From: Methanosarcina sp. MSH10X1
GTDB lineage: Archaea; Halobacteriota; Methanosarcinia; Methanosarcinales; Methanosarcinaceae
NCBI RefSeq assembly: GCF_004099695.1
Contig: NZ_SCHL01000018.1
Coordinates: 1 to 64,000, forward strand
Length of the DNA: 64,000 bases
Direction of reading: 5' to 3'
Shown: one piece after another, positions 5,111 to 58,120 of the stretch
How the letters are laid out: the number at the start of each line of letters is the position of its first letter
How positions within the stretch are numbered: position 1 is the stretch's first letter
The notes under the pieces: generated by a model
What the model was told of the DNA's origin: nothing
Databases searched by the model: none
The model's input: only the letters and a program-made list of their open reading frames with translations
Position numbers and translations under genes: made by a program

Positions 5111-6352
5111 TCATTCATACCTCAAGGCATCCACAGGCTTGAGTTTGGAAGCCCTGTATGCGGGGATGGCTCCGGATACAACGCCTATAACAACTGCCAG
5201 GACAAGTCCGAAGAGCATGAGGCGGGGGGAAAGGAAGATACCTGTATCACCTTCAGATCTCATCATGGTCATACCAAGCATGGGAAAGAGCGTTGAGATG
5301 AATGCCCCCAGCATAACTCCAAAAATCCCCCCGACAAAACCGACCATTGCGGAATTGAAGATAAAAATCATAAGAATATCACGATTCCTGGCCCCTATAG
5401 CTTTCATAGTGCCGATCTCTTTTGTTTTTTCAAGGACCGAAGTAAACATCGTGTTTGCAATTCCCACAGCTCCTACAATCAGCGACACGGCAGCGATTGC
5501 TCCCAGGAAAAGCGTCATGGAGGAGGTCATTTCGGTAACGGATTCAGCCATGGATTTCGATGCGGTCACGGAGAAGTCCATGTCGTCTTCCCGTACTATG
5601 TGCCTTGAAATCATGAGCTTATCCGTAATATCTTCCATTACCGTATCCACCAGGTCTTCACTTTGCGCCTTCACCATAATCGTATCAAAGACGCCTTCTT
5701 CCGCATCCTCGATCAGGCTTACTGCCCCGTCAATAGGTATATAAACACTGCTGTCCCCAAACCCGCCTTCTTCAGTCAGGATGCCAACAACGCGCACGGA
5801 CTTACCTTTTATTTTTATTACCTGGTTAATTCCTATGTCCTGATCATAAATTCCACTGGCGACATCGCTCCCTATAACTGCTACGTATTTATCAGCTGGC
5901 TCAAGCAATCTTCCGGACTGCGTCTCCAGGGTAGTCATGTATTTCCAGACCTGGGGATCCACACCTGTAATCGAGAGGGTTGCATTCTCCCCTGCATAAT
6001 CCACTTCTTCACTGCCGGAGATCTCACCTGCGATATGCTGTATGCCCTCTACACCCTGAAGTGCATCGATATCGTCATCTGTCAATTCAGAATCCTTAGC
6101 TGTATTGCCACCCTCCCCATGTGGGCCGGGCATATTTGACATCGCCCTGGTGTATCCGGGGCTTATGGCTATTTTCGTCAGATCCATCTCGGCAAGCCTG
6201 CTCTGGACCTGTTCCTCCATAGCATCCCCAAGAGAGAGGATGCCGACAACCGCCCCGACCCCTATAACAATCCCTATAATGGTCAGCCAGCTCCGGAGTT
6301 TGCTGTGCAGAAGCATATTCAGGGCCATTTTCACGTAGGTTGAGTTTCTCAT
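5111..6352 (-). CDS. ABC transporter permease, MacB/FtsX type
   Basis: This 413-residue permease has a first membrane helix around residues 20-42, a large extracytoplasmic MacB-like domain (about 45-270) and three C-terminal helices (about 282-305, 325-360 and 375-400). The FtsX motif EIGTMKAIGAR sits between the second and third helices. It is the last gene of an operon with an ATPase (8018-8944) and a secreted protein (6633-8021). Such modules in archaea are thought to export or extract lipids, peptides or envelope proteins; the substrate is unknown. The start is chosen at 6352 because GGAAGGA lies six bases upstream. That ribosome site is duplicated upstream next to a repeat element. Confidence 0.93.
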   Translation of the reverse strand: MRNSTYVKMALNMLLHSKLRSWLTIIGIVIGVGAVVGILSLGDAMEEQVQSRLAEMDLTKIAISPGYTRAMSNMPGPHGEGGNTAKDSELTDDDIDALQGVEGIQHIAGEISGSEEVDYAGENATLSITGVDPQVWKYMTTLETQSGRLLEPADKYVAVIGSDVASGIYDQDIGINQVIKIKGKSVRVVGILTEEGGFGDSSVYIPIDGAVSLIEDAEEGVFDTIMVKAQSEDLVDTVMEDITDKLMISRHIVREDDMDFSVTASKSMAESVTEMTSSMTLFLGAIAAVSLIVGAVGIANTMFTSVLEKTKEIGTMKAIGARNRDILMIFIFNSAMVGFVGGIFGVMLGAFISTLFPMLGMTMMRSEGDTGIFLSPRLMLFGLVLAVVIGVVSGAIPAYRASKLKPVDALRYE

Positions 6353-6371
6353 TCCGCATCCTTCCTTTCAT
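6344..6371. repeat. Direct repeat flanking the hairpin element, left copy
   Basis: This 28-bp segment covers the ribosome binding site and first codons of the permease gene. It is repeated with only a few changes at 6589-6617, on the far side of the hairpin element. The shared core is attccgcatccttcc. Confidence 0.85.
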
Positions 6372-6375
6372 TTAA

Positions 6376-6588
6376 AACCGTTGCTCAGTTTCATCACGCC
6401 GACCATGCCGTTATCAATCAAGCATGGTTTTTGGTCAAACTTTTCTGAAAGAGTTTGCGTTTTTGATCAAACTTTTTTTGAAAAAGTTTGCGTTTTTGAT
6501 CAAACTTTTCTGAAAGAGTTTGCGTTTTTGATCAAACTTTTCTGAAAAAGTTTGCGTTTTTGATCAAACTTTTTTTGAAAAATTTTGC
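6376..6588. repeat. Hairpin-rich repeat element, copy 1
   Basis: A degenerate GC-rich head (about 6376-6426) resembles the head of the elements at 34.5 and 56.1 kb. It is followed by five tandem 32-33 bp units (6427-6588). Each unit reads gtttttgatcaaac, a run of T, then a complementary A-rich arm ending in gtttgc, so each can fold into a CAAACTTTT/AAAAGTTTG hairpin. It sits inside an operon between the secreted-protein gene and the permease gene, and could attenuate or process the mRNA. Confidence 0.88.
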
Positions 6589-6617
6589 GTTTCTAATTCC
6601 GCATCCTTCCCTTCCAT
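6589..6617. repeat. Direct repeat flanking the hairpin element, right copy
   Basis: This is the second copy of the permease translation-initiation segment (left copy 6344-6371). On the minus strand it keeps the GGAAGGA site and an ATGCGGAAT start-like sequence but continues into TAG, so it would give only a three-residue product. This fits duplication of the permease start region when the intervening element arrived. Confidence 0.8.
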
Positions 6618-6632
6618 ATCAATAGTTCTCTT

Positions 6633-8021
6633 TTAGTCTCTTGTTACTCCGGAGTCGTATTTCTGGTCTTCAGTTCCTCTATTTCCGGATTTTTTTTCAC
6701 TTCTTGCCTGTCTTTTCCTGCGGTATATGAACAACCCCGCTCCTGCAACTATTATTACTAAAATGAGATCAGGTGCGTATGAACTGAGGCTATTGCTGCT
6801 GCGCGCTCTCTGCCCGGATTCTGTGCCAGTGGCTGCGGATGAAGCCATTTGAACTGCAACAGCTTTGTCAACCGTTATTCTTTCCCCTCTGGCATCGGTA
6901 TATTCGATCTGGACTTTTAGAGGAGGAGAAGCCGTTGAAACCGAACCTTTATTCCCTTCGGCTATAACCTCATCTGCTTTTGCTGTGCCTGGAGTCTCCT
7001 TTTTATCTGCAGCCTGTGAGCTCGCAACATTAAAGGACGCAATCGTGTAGTCTCCCTTCTCAAGGTTTCCAACAATCGATGAAGAACTCCCTGTTACCCT
7101 GAAATCTTCCTGCTCAGGAACGGACACTTTCACGGAATATGCCATATTGTTGCCCACGTTTGCGACTGAAAGGGAAATCTCTCCCGGGTCGCTTTCCGAA
7201 AAGGAAACATCGAAATCGGTTTCCCCGCCTACAAAGAGCCCTGCAGTTGTCTGGATACTTTTCTCATTGGATCCATAATCTTCAAAGCTGAGATTTACAT
7301 CAAGGGTATAAAGTCCGGGGTTAGCGTTTACATCTGCCATGACCGAATAAGCAACTGTTACGGAATCCTCAGGTTCCAGATATTTGACATACTTTGTGTT
7401 ATCCGAATATACCGGCAGGATAACGCCTTTGGGGTCTTTCCAGGAAATAACCATATTTTTCAGGGGCGAATTTCCGGTATTCGTTATTATAAATTCGAGA
7501 GGCTCTTCCTTTGCCAGGTCAATATTTGCCTTGTTAATGGTAACGATTTGAGCGTACTCTTTGCCCCTTACCTCGAGCTGGATGGTCTTTGTGGTTTTAA
7601 CCGTTTTTGACGAGGATCCGTCCTCTCTCGCAGTTGTGATAATATGGAGGTCGTATGTGCCTTCGGAAGCATTCGGGTCGGTCATTAGCTTGAATTTAAG
7701 AGCGGCTGCATCATTATCTTCCTGCCGTGCATTCAGGTACGGGACCTGCTTTTCAAGCGATTCTCCGGACACCTTGCTGAAAGGATATTGAGGCTGGATT
7801 GCGACATTAATATTCTTCAGGTCATTACTCCCCACATTCTGTACGCTGACAGTAAGTTCGACCGGTTCCCCAGGGCGTGCAGCATCGGGATTCTGGTTAG
7901 TCACGTTTGCCTGAACGGACGAGGAATCTATCAATCCGCTCGCAGCAAAAGCCGTTCCCGCTCCCAGCGCCAGCATTGATGAATATAGAATCAAAAGCGT
8001 TAATAAAGAAAATTTTTTCAT
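6633..8021 (-). CDS. Secreted COG1361/CARDB-like protein of an ABC exporter operon
   Basis: This 462-residue protein has an N-terminal signal peptide (about 1-27). Tandem immunoglobulin-like domains of the NEW3/CARDB type follow, with repeated motifs such as NVGSNDLKN, NTGNSPLKN and NVGNNMAYS. Near the C-terminus is a membrane helix (about 415-435) followed by RRKRQ. It would stand outside the cell, anchored by its C-terminus. Its ATG overlaps the stop of the upstream ATPase gene by four bases (ATGA), so the two are translationally coupled. Proteins of this type often accompany MacB-like transporters in methanogens and may be the periplasmic-adaptor counterpart, which is inference. Confidence 0.9.
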   Translation of the reverse strand: MKKFSLLTLLILYSSMLALGAGTAFAASGLIDSSSVQANVTNQNPDAARPGEPVELTVSVQNVGSNDLKNINVAIQPQYPFSKVSGESLEKQVPYLNARQEDNDAAALKFKLMTDPNASEGTYDLHIITTAREDGSSSKTVKTTKTIQLEVRGKEYAQIVTINKANIDLAKEEPLEFIITNTGNSPLKNMVISWKDPKGVILPVYSDNTKYVKYLEPEDSVTVAYSVMADVNANPGLYTLDVNLSFEDYGSNEKSIQTTAGLFVGGETDFDVSFSESDPGEISLSVANVGNNMAYSVKVSVPEQEDFRVTGSSSSIVGNLEKGDYTIASFNVASSQAADKKETPGTAKADEVIAEGNKGSVSTASPPLKVQIEYTDARGERITVDKAVAVQMASSAATGTESGQRARSSNSLSSYAPDLILVIIVAGAGLFIYRRKRQARSEKKSGNRGTEDQKYDSGVTRD

Positions 8022-23108: not shown

Positions 23109-23441
23109 ATGATCAACAATTGAACAGGAAATACAAATCTGAGATCTAACTTCTAATCTCAGAATCTTTCCTTAACTTTTAAGTTTATTACTTTCAATTC
23201 GTCCCTGTTTCTAGCTTTTTCCGGCATTTTCTTTAAAACCCGCAGAATAGCTTGACAGAAATCATATGTTTTAGCGAAGCTATTTACAATAGTTTACTCA
23301 AACTCTATAAATGCCGCCGACATGCAGAAAAGCTAATTCTATTTCTTCATTTCAGATTGCAAGTATCTTCTAGAACCCCACGCTGTCTCGCTTTCCATAC
23401 CATATCGGGCGCAGAGAATTCAATCCAGATTATAAAAGGTC
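23109..23441. other. Intergenic region before the RIO2 gene
   Basis: About 330 bp. Its plus-strand short frame (23252-23476) has no ribosome site and overlaps the RIO2 start, so I do not call it. The last 40 bp are AT-rich and may hold the RIO2 promoter. Confidence 0.4.
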
Positions 23442-32497: not shown

Positions 32498-34480
32498 ATG
32501 CAAAAAAGGATTATCTATGGAATCGATATTGCCCGGGGCTCTCCCAGGGCAAGGGAACTTCCCAGATATGCACTTGCTATCCTTAAGGACGGCGAAGTTT
32601 CCCATCAAAGTATGCTCCGTCGCCAGAAGATCTTCAACATGATCCAGAGGGAAAAGCCGGAGATAATAGCTGTTGACAATATTTTCGAGCTTGCAGCCGA
32701 CAGAAACGAACTTCTTTCTCTTATGGAACGGCTGCCTGAAGGCGTTAAACTTGTTCAGGTCACAGGTGGGCTGCACCCTGAACCGCTTGTCAGGCTTGCA
32801 CGGAAACACGGGCTTTCACTTGATCCCGAAAACCCGAATGATGAAGCCGAAGCATGTGCCCGCCTTGCGGAAATGGGGGTTGGGCATGAGGTTTCCCTCT
32901 TTGAAGACATCACAAAGATTAAAGTCAGCAGAGCCCGCTCTCTGGGAAGGGGAGGCTGGAGCCAGAACCGGTACCGCAGGAAGGTACATGGGGCTGTGCT
33001 GCAAAGGAGCAGAGAAATTGAAAATGCCCTGAAAGATCTCTCCAGGGAAAAAGGCATCAGGTTCGAAGCCGTAAACGTAAAAGGCTTCGGAGGGTATGTC
33101 AGGTCCGAATTCACTGTTTATGCAAAACGCGGAGAGATCCCGATACATCCAATGGCAAGCAATGATGCTCAGGTAAGCGTAAGAAGCGTTGAACGCGATA
33201 AAATCCGATACGTTCCCCTAAAACCGAAGAATACGAGGCGTAAATTTACAATCGTGGGAATCGATCCAGGAACAACCGTAGGAATAGCTATTCTCTCACT
33301 TGACGGAGACCTTCTGTACTTGAAAAGCTTCAGGGGAATTGCTCCTGACGAAGTGGTCAAACTTATAGCAGAATACGGAAAACCTGCAGTAATAGCCAGT
33401 GATGTGACTCCCATGCCGGGCTCGGTTGAGAAAATAAGAAGGAGTTTCAATGCCGTGCCTGCAAGTCCGGGGATCGAGGTTTCTGCCGAGGAAAAAATTG
33501 CAGTTGGGAAGACCTTCGGTTACTCCAATGACCATGAAAGGGATGCACTGACTGCGGCTCTTCTCACCTACAGAAGTTATAAGAATATTTTTACCCGGAT
33601 TGAAAAGAAAGCTCCTCAAAACGCAGATCTTGAGCTAATAAAGTTGCATGTAATCCGCGGAGCTTCGATAGAGGCTGCAATTGAAAAAGTTCGGGTTTCA
33701 GGTGAGCCTGAAAAACCAAAATCAAGAGAGCGTGCTGAAAAACAGGAAGACAGACCAGTCGATGAGACCCTCCTGAAAATGAGGGAAACTGCCCAGCGGC
33801 AGAGCGAGCAGATACAGAACCTGCAGGAATATCTTGAGGAATTAAAGCAAGAACTGATCGCAAAAGACAGGAAAATCTCAAAGCTTGAATCAAGGCTGAA
33901 TAGTTTCAAGAAGGAAGCCTACGGGGAAATACGGAAATCTAAAGAAATCCGGATAAGGGACGAGACGATTGAAAGCCTGAAAAAAGAGGTAAGCAATAAG
34001 AATAAAACCGTAAAGGAACTGCGGCGCAGAAGTAACAAGCTACGTAAAATCCAGAAGATGGAGGTCCGCGGCGAAGGTACCGCTGTCAAGGTTATTGCCG
34101 CTTTTACGAAGGAATCCATTGCAGAAACAAAGGAGAAATACGGGCTTAAGACAGGCGACGTGGTTTTCCTCGAAAACCCAAGCGGAGGAGGGGCTGCAAC
34201 CGCGCAGATTCTTGTAGAAGCCGGAGTCCGCGCCGTACTTATTCCGGAGGACATTTCGCACGCAGCAAACGAAACCTTCTTCAAAGGAGATGTGCCGGTT
34301 TTAAAAGACATCCCGCTCGAAAGGGCTGAAGACTTTGCAATGGCTGAACCCGAAACCCTCAAAGCCGCAATCGCAGCCTGGGAAAAAGAAGCCGATGACA
34401 AACGCCACCAAGCCAAACAGGACGAACTTCAAAGCCTCTTTGAAGAATATAAAAGTGAAAGGCGCAGGGGCCTGGTTTAA
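32498..34480 (+). CDS. DUF460 protein with RNase H-like domain and coiled coil
   Basis: The 660-residue protein starts with an RNase H-fold-like strand (YGIDIARGSPRA). A second such motif lies near residue 255 (IVGIDPGTTVGIAIL), and the acidic DHERDALTAAL that completes a resolvase-like site is near residue 348. This is the DUF460 (PF04312) family of archaea, related to Holliday-junction resolvase folds; its substrate is unknown. A long coiled coil (about 400-530) and a C-terminal domain (about 535-650) follow. The protein is probably cytoplasmic and nucleic-acid associated. The stop lies inside a terminator hairpin. Confidence 0.9.
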   Translation: MQKRIIYGIDIARGSPRARELPRYALAILKDGEVSHQSMLRRQKIFNMIQREKPEIIAVDNIFELAADRNELLSLMERLPEGVKLVQVTGGLHPEPLVRLARKHGLSLDPENPNDEAEACARLAEMGVGHEVSLFEDITKIKVSRARSLGRGGWSQNRYRRKVHGAVLQRSREIENALKDLSREKGIRFEAVNVKGFGGYVRSEFTVYAKRGEIPIHPMASNDAQVSVRSVERDKIRYVPLKPKNTRRKFTIVGIDPGTTVGIAILSLDGDLLYLKSFRGIAPDEVVKLIAEYGKPAVIASDVTPMPGSVEKIRRSFNAVPASPGIEVSAEEKIAVGKTFGYSNDHERDALTAALLTYRSYKNIFTRIEKKAPQNADLELIKLHVIRGASIEAAIEKVRVSGEPEKPKSRERAEKQEDRPVDETLLKMRETAQRQSEQIQNLQEYLEELKQELIAKDRKISKLESRLNSFKKEAYGEIRKSKEIRIRDETIESLKKEVSNKNKTVKELRRRSNKLRKIQKMEVRGEGTAVKVIAAFTKESIAETKEKYGLKTGDVVFLENPSGGGAATAQILVEAGVRAVLIPEDISHAANETFFKGDVPVLKDIPLERAEDFAMAEPETLKAAIAAWEKEADDKRHQAKQDELQSLFEEYKSERRRGLV

Positions 34481-34497: not shown

Positions 34498-34725
34498 CAA
34501 ACCGTTGACCCGCGACCGTTGTGCCGCGACCGTTGCGCCGGTCGATCACGCTCCGGTTACACCAGTATAGATAAATCGTGAGTTTTTGCTCAAACTTTTT
34601 TTGAAAAGGCTTGCGTTGCGCCAGTTTATCACGCTCCGGTTACTCCGGTCTAGATAAAGCACGCGTTTTTGATAAAACTTTTTTTGAAAAAGTTTTCGCT
34701 CAAGCCTTTTTTGAAAAGGCTTGCG
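34498..34725. repeat. Hairpin-rich repeat element, copy 2
   Basis: The element begins with aaccgttg, then cgcgaccgttgtgccgcgac. Two copies follow of a module made of a GC-rich part (gatcacgctccggttac), a tctagataaa-type part and a hairpin (caaacttttt or aaaacttttt with its A-rich complement). A final ctcaagcctttt/aaaaggcttgc hairpin closes it. The whole unit recurs in inverse orientation at 55944-56164 and in shortened form at 6376-6588. It lies just downstream of the DUF460 gene. Confidence 0.92.
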
Positions 34726-34801
34726 ATCAAGGATTTTTTTGAAAGGATTTATGGAATTTGGATAATACCTTTTTTAAGCAATAAACCCTATCTGGATCAG
34801 C

Positions 34802-35563
34802 ATGCCAGATCCCATGAAAGAACCCGCTAAAGAACCTGACGGTGGCCCGATCAAGGAACATTTCCAGCTCAGGGAAACCATAGTTACGATTGCGGCTGAC
34901 AGGCAGGCTCATATCGAGGCTGCAAAAGAAGCAATTCGCACCCACAGGGCAGCCCTTGAGACTTTCATTCTTTCCGATCCTTATTTTCAGCTTACTCTCG
35001 AACCTTACGAATGTCCGGAAAATGCGCCTGAAGTTGTAAAAAGGATGGTAAAAGCCGGAAACACTATGGGAATAGGTCCGATGAGTGCGGTTGCAGGTAC
35101 GATTTCTGCGCTTGCAGTGGAAGCTATGGTTGATGCAGGGGCAAGGTATGCGATTGTGGATAATGGTGGGGATATTGCACTCATTAATGACAGGCCTGTA
35201 GTGGTTGGGATCTACGCCGGACAGTCCTCCGTTAAAAATCTGGGCCTGGTTTTCGAACCCAGAGATTCGATTACAGGCGTATGCACTTCAGCCGGTACGG
35301 TTGGGCCCTCAATCAGTTTCGGGATTGCAGATGCAGCTGCTGTATTCTCGGATGACGTGTCCCTGGCAGATGCGGCTGCAACGGCTCTTGGAAACGAGGT
35401 GGGTACAGGAAAAGAATCAGTAGAAGCTTCTTTCAAAGCCGTAAAGGGAATTCCGGGAATAAAGGGGGCACTCGTAATCCAGGGAGAATATATCGGCGTG
35501 TGGGGGCAGATACCAGGGATTACAAGAGCTAGGATAAGGTACGAACATATCACAAAGGCCTGA
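34802..35563 (+). CDS. UPF0280 family protein (ApbE-like fold)
   Basis: The 253-residue protein matches UPF0280, a methanogen-conserved family distantly related to ApbE flavin transferases. The glycine-rich core [20 protein letters not shown] (about 97-116) and [12 protein letters not shown] (about 118-129) are typical. The function is not known; ApbE relatives attach FMN to target proteins, but the key catalytic residues cannot be confirmed here. The first dozen residues are charged and poorly conserved, and the second Met (residue 5) is an alternative start. Confidence 0.9.
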
Positions 35564-41278: not shown

Positions 41279-41472
41279 AAGACCGCTACCTTTGTGTGAT
41301 AAAATATCAGTTTATTATACCCGTTTGTTAGCACTGACTTCATCTTATGCAAAAATCCATTTTATTTTATACAAAACTACTATTACATCGCAGATAGTAA
41401 TAGCTTGCCTCAGATTAGTCGCAGTCTTTTTTATTTAGGAAAGAGGCTTCATTGATGGCAACAATTGGGCTT

Positions 41473-41553
41473 CTTAATCAATTGTTCTTAATCAATTGTT
41501 CTTAATCAATTGTTCTTAATCAATTGTTCTTAATCAATTGTTCTTAATCAATT
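41473..41553. repeat. 14-bp tandem repeat, six copies
   Basis: Five perfect units of cttaatcaattgtt and a sixth partial one follow head to tail. Each contains the palindrome caattg. The array lies 60 bp beyond the stop of the minus-strand MscS gene. The rest of the 41279-41611 gap shows only AT-rich sequence upstream of the peptidase. Confidence 0.95.
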
Positions 41554-41611
41554 GAGGGGTTTGTGGCGTTTAACGTGATGAAGACATTGAGGAGCAGGCT
41601 AACAGGTTTAC

Positions 41612-45766: not shown

Positions 45767-45906
45767 AATCAATAAAGATCAGTCAATAAAGATCAATCAA
45801 TAAAGATCAGTCAATAAAGATCAATCAATAAAGATCAATCAATAAAGATCAGTCAATAAAGATCAATCAATAAAGATCAGTCAATAAAGATCAATCAATA
45901 AAGATC
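45767..45906. repeat. 14-bp tandem repeat, ten copies
   Basis: Ten units alternate irregularly between aatcaataaagatc and agtcaataaagatc. Some variants differ only at the second base. It starts 62 bp after the stop of the TM-helix gene. No spacers occur, so it is not a CRISPR array. Confidence 0.95.
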
Positions 45907-46523
45907 AAATCAATACGGATCAGACCAGCCGTGATTGATCGAAGCTGTTCTTGTCTGACCATTCATGCCGGGGATAAAACCATAGATCTGGCTTTAAAAG
46001 GCAAAAGTAATAATATATAAAGTATGTAATTTATTTTGGATCGTCGACTTTTTTCGAACATTAGCAGACAATTTTTTACATACTAATAAAAAATAATAAT
46101 AATTTTATATTTAAGATCCGCTTTTTCGCAGATAAAATTTTTAGTTATTTACTGACTGACTCCTGCCTGCAAATAAGCGGACAGGAAAGAATAATGCATT
46201 TAAGTCCTGAAATACGAACAAAAGAGTTCTTTTTGCAGGCAATATCGAATAAAGAAATTGAAACTACAAGCAGAGTCTGGAAGACTCTTTAAATTTTAAG
46301 GGTTTGAATAAATTTCACAGAATACACATTATTCATTATAAAATAATATTAATAAGAAGATACAAATACTCTTTGTATGATATATAAAGTTGGAAATCAT
46401 ACATATTCACACAAAATAAATCTTTAGGCAGATTAAAACGGGGTATAGCTCTAACATAAGGGAACATAAGGGATTGCTGTCTGCTGAAGGGATTAAGCGG
46501 GGGAATTCAGGATTAGATCACGA
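45907..46523. other. Upstream region of the fasciclin surface-protein gene
   Basis: About 600 bp without a gene. It is AT-rich, with TATA-like stretches near 46080-46120 and 46330-46350, and a long leader is possible. GGGGG at 46498-46503 and AGGA at 46509-46512 precede the proposed TTG start. Confidence 0.45.
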
Positions 46524-55941: not shown

Positions 55942-55943
55942 TT

Positions 55944-56164
55944 GCAAGCCTACAAGCCTTTTACAAAAAGGCTTGAGCGAAAACTTTTTCAAAAAAAGTT
56001 TTATCAAAAACGCGTGCTTTATCTAGATCGGAGTAACCGGAGCGTGATCGACCGGCGATACGCAAACTTTTTCAAAAAAAGTTTGATCAAAAACCCTGAT
56101 TTATCTAGACCGCTGTAACCGGGGCGTGATCGACCGGCGCAACGGTCGCGGCACAACGGTTGCA
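55944..56164. repeat. Hairpin-rich repeat element, copy 3 (inverted)
   Basis: Read on the minus strand, this stretch follows copy 2 (34498-34725) module by module: ccgttgtgccgcgaccgttg head, then two modules of gatcacg-c-ccggttac plus tctagataaa plus hairpin, then the aagcctttt hairpin. The match covers about 210 bp with scattered changes. It starts two bases after the small coiled-coil gene. The opposite orientation relative to a similarly placed gene end shows that it is not a one-way terminator. Confidence 0.92.
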
Positions 56165-56371
56165 ATTAAAAGTTGAACCAGAAAAACCGGAACTAAGAAT
56201 CGAGAGCTAGCAGATTTCTCAGGTCATCTCCGATTTTGAATATATTTTGTTTCCGATTTGTAACCTGGCTTTTAGTTTGTAATTCTCAGAATATGCGGTT
56301 CTTTGTAGTGCAGCTCTCGATTTCCTTAATATTGAACTCTCTTAATCCCCTTAATCTCCTCAATCTTACTT

Positions 56372-56476
56372 CCTTAATTTTTATTTCCTTAATTTTTATT
56401 TCCTTAATTTTTATTTCCTTAATTTTTATTTCCTTAATTTTTATTTCCTTAATTTTTATTTCCTTAATTTTTATTT
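56372..56476. repeat. 15-bp tandem repeat, seven copies
   Basis: Seven perfect units of ccttaatttttattt and a decayed eighth. The minus-strand small coiled-coil gene ends inside the last units: its TAA stop and last codons (AGG AAA TAA) are part of the repeat sequence. Imperfect ccttaat units extend back to about 56335. Confidence 0.95.
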
Positions 56477-56671
56477 CCTTAGTGCTTCCTGAACCTTTCT
56501 GGTGTTTTCTATGGCTTTTCTCTTTAGTTCGATCATCTTTTCCATTTCAGCTATTTTGGCTTCCAACCAGAGTATCTTCATGTCCATCTTCATTAAAGCG
56601 ATTTCTTTTTTCTGATTTTCGGGAAGAATTTCCCAGATTTCCATCATCATTCCTTCATGACCTTCATGCAT
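56471..56671 (-). CDS. Small charged coiled-coil protein
   Basis: This 66-residue protein begins MHEGHEGMMMEIWEIL and continues as a long amphipathic helix rich in Lys, Glu, Met and Leu. I do not recognise a family. The start is set at the ATG at 56671, with GGGGGCAATCGAGC upstream; a longer frame to 56725 is possible. The His-Glu-Gly-His N-terminus could bind a metal, but this is speculation. The gene ends within a 15-bp tandem array, so its last residues (LRK) may have been shaped by the repeat. Confidence 0.6.
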   Translation of the reverse strand: MHEGHEGMMMEIWEILPENQKKEIALMKMDMKILWLEAKIAEMEKMIELKRKAIENTRKVQEALRK

Positions 56672-57928: not shown

Positions 57929-57939
57929 TTAAAGAGAAA

Positions 57940-58120
57940 ATGAGAATCTGATGTAGAAAAATAAGAATCTGATGTAGAATAATAAGAATCTAATGTAGAA
58001 AATGAGAATCTGATGTAGAATAATAAGAATCTAATGTAGAAAATGAGAATCTGATAGAAAAATAAGAATCTGATAGAAAAATGAGAATCGGATGTAGAGA
58101 GTAAGAACGGATGTAAAACT
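57940..58120. repeat. 18-21 bp tandem repeat, nine copies
   Basis: Nine units of the form atgagaatctgatgtagaa and ataagaatctaatgtagaa occur head to tail, with length changes of one to three bases between copies. It occupies the place where the N-terminal part of the methyltransferase remnant should be, and lies on the 3' side of the minus-strand zinc-ribbon-like gene. The following 58121-58322 stretch is AT-rich and holds no gene. Confidence 0.9.

Follow-up and report, generated by a model that had tools for sequence, protein, structure and literature searches.

Tagged modular hairpin repeats with exchangeable middles in Methanosarcina genomes

Among the Methanosarcina genomes searched, about half carry a family of modular hairpin repeats, three copies of which lie in the 64,000-nucleotide stretch of Methanosarcina sp. 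MSH10X1 DNA analyzed here (the window). With a probability of roughly 0.55, these elements are non-coding palindromic repeats specific to this Methanosarcina clade, interspersed and modular in build, that resemble the REP and BIME sequences of bacteria, are non-autonomous and act at the DNA level; we infer the last two properties, and likewise the mode of spreading.

At its 5′ end, an element has 14-bp units of the ACCGTTGACCCGMA type, numbering from one to about five, followed by hairpin A (NNACCG-TTGCGC-CGGTNN), the GC-rich head being itself a hairpin. Directly 3′ of hairpin A stand an unpaired ATCACGCC box and then an exchangeable middle, and the 3′ end is formed by one or more 27-bp AT-rich hairpin units (e.g., GCTCAAGCCTTTTTTGAAAAGGCTTGC). 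The modules are arranged in tandem, head to tail, and the arrays vary by whole modules and whole hairpins: the module spacings in the own genome group at 62–67, 82–85 and 106–110 bp, where the difference between 83 and 110 bp is one 27-bp hairpin. Free-standing hairpins at 27-bp spacing are also found in the genomes G041 and G015. The similarity of modules is only modestly higher inside an array than between arrays, with a median of 0.71 (upper quartile 1.00) versus 0.67 (0.80). In the internal modules of the own-genome arrays, the 5′ arm of hairpin A is often missing and replaced by CTTGCG; hairpin A is therefore chiefly a feature of the first module. The elements are 100–800 bp in size and built of such repeats, which leaves no space for a transposase gene.

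As shown in Table 1, copies 2 and 3 consist of two modules each, AT-rich hairpins occur in each copy, and copy 1 has a decayed head followed by five hairpins in tandem, all of which agrees with the original prediction. Its further claim that the GC-rich head and the linker occur in all three copies holds for copies 2 and 3, which carry GATCACGCYCCGGTTAC (with a single-base deviation in one of the two modules of each copy) and a TCTAGATAAA-type linker, but not for copy 1, which has neither GATCACGCTCCGGTTAC nor TCTAGATAAA. Copy 1 has AACCGTTG and the ATCACGCC box, as well as AT-rich hairpins, in common with the other two. Across the family, the GC-rich head recurs among the copies and not just generic T/A hairpins. 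In the window, four head matches with up to three mismatches were found against 0.05 expected and six hairpin matches against none expected, and TRF detects units of 14, 83 and 82 bp. Copy 3 is inverted relative to copy 2, a point that the original prediction lacks, together with the 14-bp head units, the hairpin nature of the head and the separate conservation of the box. Copy 2 lies between a DUF460 gene (32498–34480) and a gene at 34802–35563, and copy 1 between a MacB/FtsX-type gene (5111–6352) and a gene at 6633–8021, both on the minus strand.

Table 1. Positions of the three copies and their parts in the window.
Feature	Position	Strand	Remark
Copy 1, decayed head	6377–6588	+	
Copy 1 box, ATCACGCC	6393–6400	+	
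Copy 1, five 32-bp AT-rich hairpins in tandem	6427–6592	+	TRF
Near-direct repeat around copy 1, left arm	6344–6369	no strand	26 bp
Near-direct repeat around copy 1, right arm	6589–6614	no strand	26 bp
Copy 2, two modules	about 34499–34744	+	~245 bp
Copy 2, 14-bp ACCGTTG head units	34501–34540	+	TRF, period 14
Copy 2 hairpin A, CGACCG-TTGCGC-CGGTCG	34527–34544	+	
Copy 2 module 1 box, ATCACGC	34545–34551	+	
Copy 2 module 2 box, ATCACGC	34628–34634	+	
Copy 2 linker, TCTAGATAAA	34649–34658	+	in own-species middle subtype
Copy 2 terminal AT-rich hairpins	34674–34696 and 34701–34723	+	two 27-bp units
Copy 3, two modules	about 55943–56164	−	~220 bp; head at high end
Copy 3 hairpin A	56131–56148	−	stem identical to copy 2
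Copy 3 module 1 box, ATCACGC	56124–56130	−	
Copy 3 module 2 box, ATCACGC	56042–56048	−	

Many more copies exist beyond the window, both in the own genome and in the genus. With up to two mismatches allowed, the head of the own subtype was counted 67 times in the own genome (3.56 Mb, 55 contigs) and had no match in 24 other Methanosarcina genomes, because this head reflects the subtype of the middle and not the whole family. The general core of hairpin and ATCACGCC box (TTGCGCCGGTTKATCACGCC, up to three mismatches, with at most one match in reversed-pattern controls) was found at 127 places in the own genome, at 35–64 in each of 13 other Methanosarcina genomes and at two in G019, and it was absent from 16 Methanosarcina genomes. 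A covariance model built from 35 elements of relatives divided the genomes in the same way: among the matches listed, the 14 element-rich genomes have many strong ones, G019 has three, G003, G042 and G004 have a single weak one each, and the 81 genomes from the family's other genera have none. The 14-bp head unit is likewise present in these 14 Methanosarcina genomes, and it is missing from all 155 genomes examined from the order's other genera. Named records include M. spelaei and Methanosarcina sp. UBA5, UBA289, UBA293, UBA402 and UBA11020. In the wider search of genome contigs, the subtype-specific head had no match and the general head unit did match; one such match, in a Deltaproteobacterium (L095), yielded no hairpin-plus-box core and was taken as chance. 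Copy 2 had no match in phage and plasmid records, and four IMG/VR matches to the 18-base core were likewise regarded as chance, the sequence being GC-rich and the rest of the element absent. With 67–127 copies, occurrence in 14 other genomes, quantized modules and either orientation, there is good support for the original proposal that the family is modular and scattered and goes beyond plain terminators.

The conservation of the hairpin and the box was surveyed in 111 hairpins, which were seeded solely on the hairpin 12-mer CCGTTGCGCCGG, so that the box and the outer stem were unselected. The outermost stem pair is C-G in 61, A-T in 47, T-G in one and mismatched in two, and the second pair is A-T in 91, G-C in 17 and mismatched in three; the stem of hairpin A covaries. 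The ATCACGCC box is 92–99% conserved at each position, compared with about 45% for the bases just past it, and is conserved independently of the remaining element. In an alignment of 35 elements with the type I middle, 95.3% of the cells of the named structure are paired versus 91.1% in shuffles, and double changes number 37 versus 12.4, where the shuffles leave relatedness in and elements of one genome are related. Helix 2 of the type I middle accepts G-U pairs, with which an RNA role for this part would fit. In hairpin A, a G-T/G-U intermediate occurs only once in the 111 hairpins, and this scarcity fits better with arm correction or block exchange at the DNA level than with slow compensation in RNA. 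The folding energy is moderately below that of shuffled sequences (z = −2.5 to −2.95); palindromes yield low folding energy whatever their function. No Rfam 15 family reached its gathering score, and only viral, bacterial and plastid families appeared below the threshold.

Nine own-genome sites were compared with G021 (3,283,688 bp) and G015 (3,127,379 bp), which are collinear with the window. The own genome was examined in stretches around the elements together with the syntenic regions, and one flank query was a shortened, hand-joined sequence used solely to find syntenic sites. Four of the nine sites (copy 2, L006, L016 and L025) are occupied in all three species, and five (copy 1, copy 3, L003, L004 and L026) are not clearly occupied in G021 and G015: the sites of copy 1 and L026 are empty in both, copy 3 and L003 retain traces of AT-hairpins, and L004 has a questionable trace of a head. 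Species thus differ by the gain or loss of sites. At the copy 2 site, no head was found in ten further element-bearing genomes, one of which, G001, has a hairpin trace. At all four shared sites, the own genome carries the middle of its own subtype and G021 and G015 carry others; at L016, the three species have three different middles between a conserved head and tail. The type I middle occurs at no place in the own genome or G015, at one in G021 and at 3–56 in eleven other genomes. Since the middles differ at every shared site and the genome-wide counts differ in this way, new, species-specific middles have replaced resident ones throughout the genome. The simplest process of replacement would be gene conversion anchored on the common hairpin-plus-box and tail. 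As a separate observation, a diverged element or its hairpins lies between the DJ-1/PfpI and RIO-kinase genes in G021 and G015 and is missing from the own genome (window 23109–23441), which represents either loss in this genome or gain in the relatives.

In comparison with both G021 and G015, copy 1 is cleanly inserted. The arms of the 26-bp near-direct repeat on its flanks are identical at 24 of 26 positions, and the repeat sequence is single in both relatives. This repeat overlaps the annotated start codon (6352) of the MacB/FtsX-type gene and the region upstream, and the insertion therefore seems to have duplicated the start region (window 6344–6614). Copy 1 is an exception, since across 43 elements the direct repeats on the flanks score 6.36 versus 6.48 for mismatched flanks; with no general target duplication, the insertion of a unit is cleanly visible at copy 1 only, and the flanking repeat there is unusual. 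No terminal inverted repeats were seen, the head units and tail hairpins being different sequences. An association with Y1/RAYT transposases was considered and rejected, because the Y1 counts per genome do not track the element counts: Y1_Tnp matches are absent from G013 (99% complete, 64 cores) and from G020, and number 79 in G043, which has no cores. The suggestion of a non-autonomous element thus stays plausible in view of several sites that are empty in relatives, although neither an enzyme, terminal inverted repeats nor a general target duplication was found.

The position of the elements relative to genes, as called by a gene finder that relied on codon usage and was trained on the window, bears on whether the elements might act mainly as RNA, namely as terminators or 3′-end stability hairpins selected at gene ends and, given the near symmetry of the AT-rich hairpins, usable from either strand. 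Apart from nine elements too near a contig or locus end to be placed, 97 elements (41 in the own genome and 56 in relatives) are intergenic and one is inside a predicted gene. Converging-gene gaps hold 30 of the 97 elements (31%) compared with 5 of the window's 34 background gaps (15%), and in same-direction gaps the core is closer to the 3′ end of a gene in whichever orientation the element lies; T runs on both strands of the AT-rich hairpins and the G-U tolerance of helix 2 are also in keeping with an RNA function. However, converging gaps are only perhaps over-used, since with 34 background gaps the excess is not firm (Fisher p = 0.07), 16 elements lie between diverging genes, and the elements have no strand preference toward genes, those in same-direction gaps being sense in 29 cases and antisense in 22 (p = 0.40). 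This lack of sense orientation to the upstream gene distinguishes them from intrinsic terminators and sense 3′-UTR signals. A strand-specific structured RNA signal, the other possibility raised at the outset, is unsupported, given the lack of both a sense-strand bias and G-U intermediates in the stem changes of hairpin A. The elements are moreover missing from 16 genomes of the same genus, and a terminator needs neither a GC-rich hairpin nor a box. A mainly RNA-level role is thus possible but unlikely.

Tandem growth by whole units, the lack of a transposase link and of a general target duplication, and the four loci common to three species with differing middles would also be expected of a passive, enzyme-free satellite, in which old hairpin clusters change by replication slippage, gene conversion homogenizes them and apparent gains are losses elsewhere. 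Hildenbrand et al. are said to have reported efficient gene conversion in methanogens in 2011. Efficient gene conversion in polyploid archaea, described for Haloferax (PMC8223754), likewise counts for this explanation. It is nevertheless rather improbable, given the cleanly empty site of copy 1 in G021 and G015, the 67 dispersed copies of a middle that is absent from all sampled relatives, and the copy 2 site without a head in ten further element-bearing genomes. The insertion of copy 1 with its flanking near-direct repeat would suit a MITE, a deletion derivative of a DDE-type insertion sequence mobilized by the transposase of the latter; this origin is very improbable, because the head and the tail are not mutual inverted repeats and, copy 1 excepted, target duplication is absent, the flanks of the 43 elements being no better matched than unrelated loci. 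A bolder and doubtful reading is that this archaeon harbors an additional class of mobile palindromes with a tag, here GCGTGAT at the foot of the hairpin, which a trans-acting enzyme other than a Y1 (RAYT/IS200) transposase would move and whose new subtypes would overwrite resident middles genome-wide.

For the preferred reading of REP/BIME-like repeats acting at the DNA level, the following course can be envisaged. Hairpins in single-stranded DNA might lead to local duplication and let one arm correct the other, new middles might spread by gene conversion anchored at the common ends of the elements, and a putative trans-acting enzyme recognizing the hairpin plus box might place elements at new sites. 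Elements would survive where the harm is small, where they may also serve as two-way transcript ends. This reading is weakened by the failure to find a mover or a general target-site duplication, by the internal modules, in which hairpin A is often without its 5′ arm, and by the G-U tolerance of helix 2.

The REP, BIME and REPIN repeats of bacteria are GTAG-tagged and RAYT-associated (PMC2817692, PMC6006769). The Methanosarcina elements resemble them in being numerous extragenic palindromes arranged in mosaics (127 cores in 3.56 Mb), in the conserved tag that stands unpaired at the foot of the hairpin (GCGTGAT when read on the complementary strand), and in the maintenance of stem pairing via double changes. 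They differ in that the tag ATCACGCC lies 3′ of the hairpin and is not GTAG/GTGG (or CGTC), in that the clusters of the own genome and the relatives are all in a single orientation, with no mixed cluster, unlike the alternating palindromes of REP/BIME (the exception being one inverted module in G021 at the L006 site), in the lack of a RAYT/Y1 link, in the archaeal host, and in the added AT-rich hairpins and exchangeable middle. Because the tag, the alternating orientation and the RAYT association are not found here, the family is similar to REP/BIME but not a member of it. The CGTC-tagged REPs are tagged palindromes without a dedicated transposase (PMC3733652), and none is recognized here either; however, the tag and the stem are different, and PMC3733652 reports none from Methanosarcina. 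Non-autonomous elements of the IS200/IS605 type share the hairpins near the ends and the absence of terminal inverted repeats and of target duplication, whereas in the present family no transposase-bearing copy was seen and the Y1 numbers do not track it.

According to the survey by Subirana and Messeguer (PMC6749651), Methanosarcina is exceptionally rich in satellites, i.e., short tandem repeats; its text contains no description of dispersed hairpin-plus-box elements. CRISPR are the only repeats mentioned in the M. barkeri CM1 paper (PMC4582637), and no description of the tagged-hairpin family was found in the literature that could be searched, to which its novelty is limited. REP-like repeats are mostly bacterial and bound to one transposase family, and abundant tagged palindromes in a methanogen without that enzyme link provide an independent case for the origin and spread of such repeats. 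Because middles are replaced at shared sites, concerted evolution among short dispersed repeats can be measured in an archaeon. Annotation also gains a target in the unlabeled elements, of which M. spelaei and other Methanosarcina have dozens per genome.

Two other kinds of repeat were observed along with the family. Near-perfect short-period AT-rich tandem arrays lie between or beside genes in the window at 41471–41554, 45767–45915, 56366–56481 and 57933–58107, with periods of 14, 14, 15 and 21/41/62 bp, respectively (TRF), in agreement with the published satellite richness of Methanosarcina (PMC6749651). Another intergenic repeat (CTCTTGAGCGAAGCGAAAAGGGC, with a part of the CTCCCGAGACGGGACTCGGG type) is present in 29 of 31 Methanosarcina genomes and was seen at L004, L016, L031 and L045 of the own genome and at L142, L144 and L152 of relatives, where parts of it adjoin the tails of some tagged-hairpin elements. 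It is commonest in G042 and G004, which have no tagged-hairpin element, with 68–85 copies, some of them in tandem at about 113 bp.
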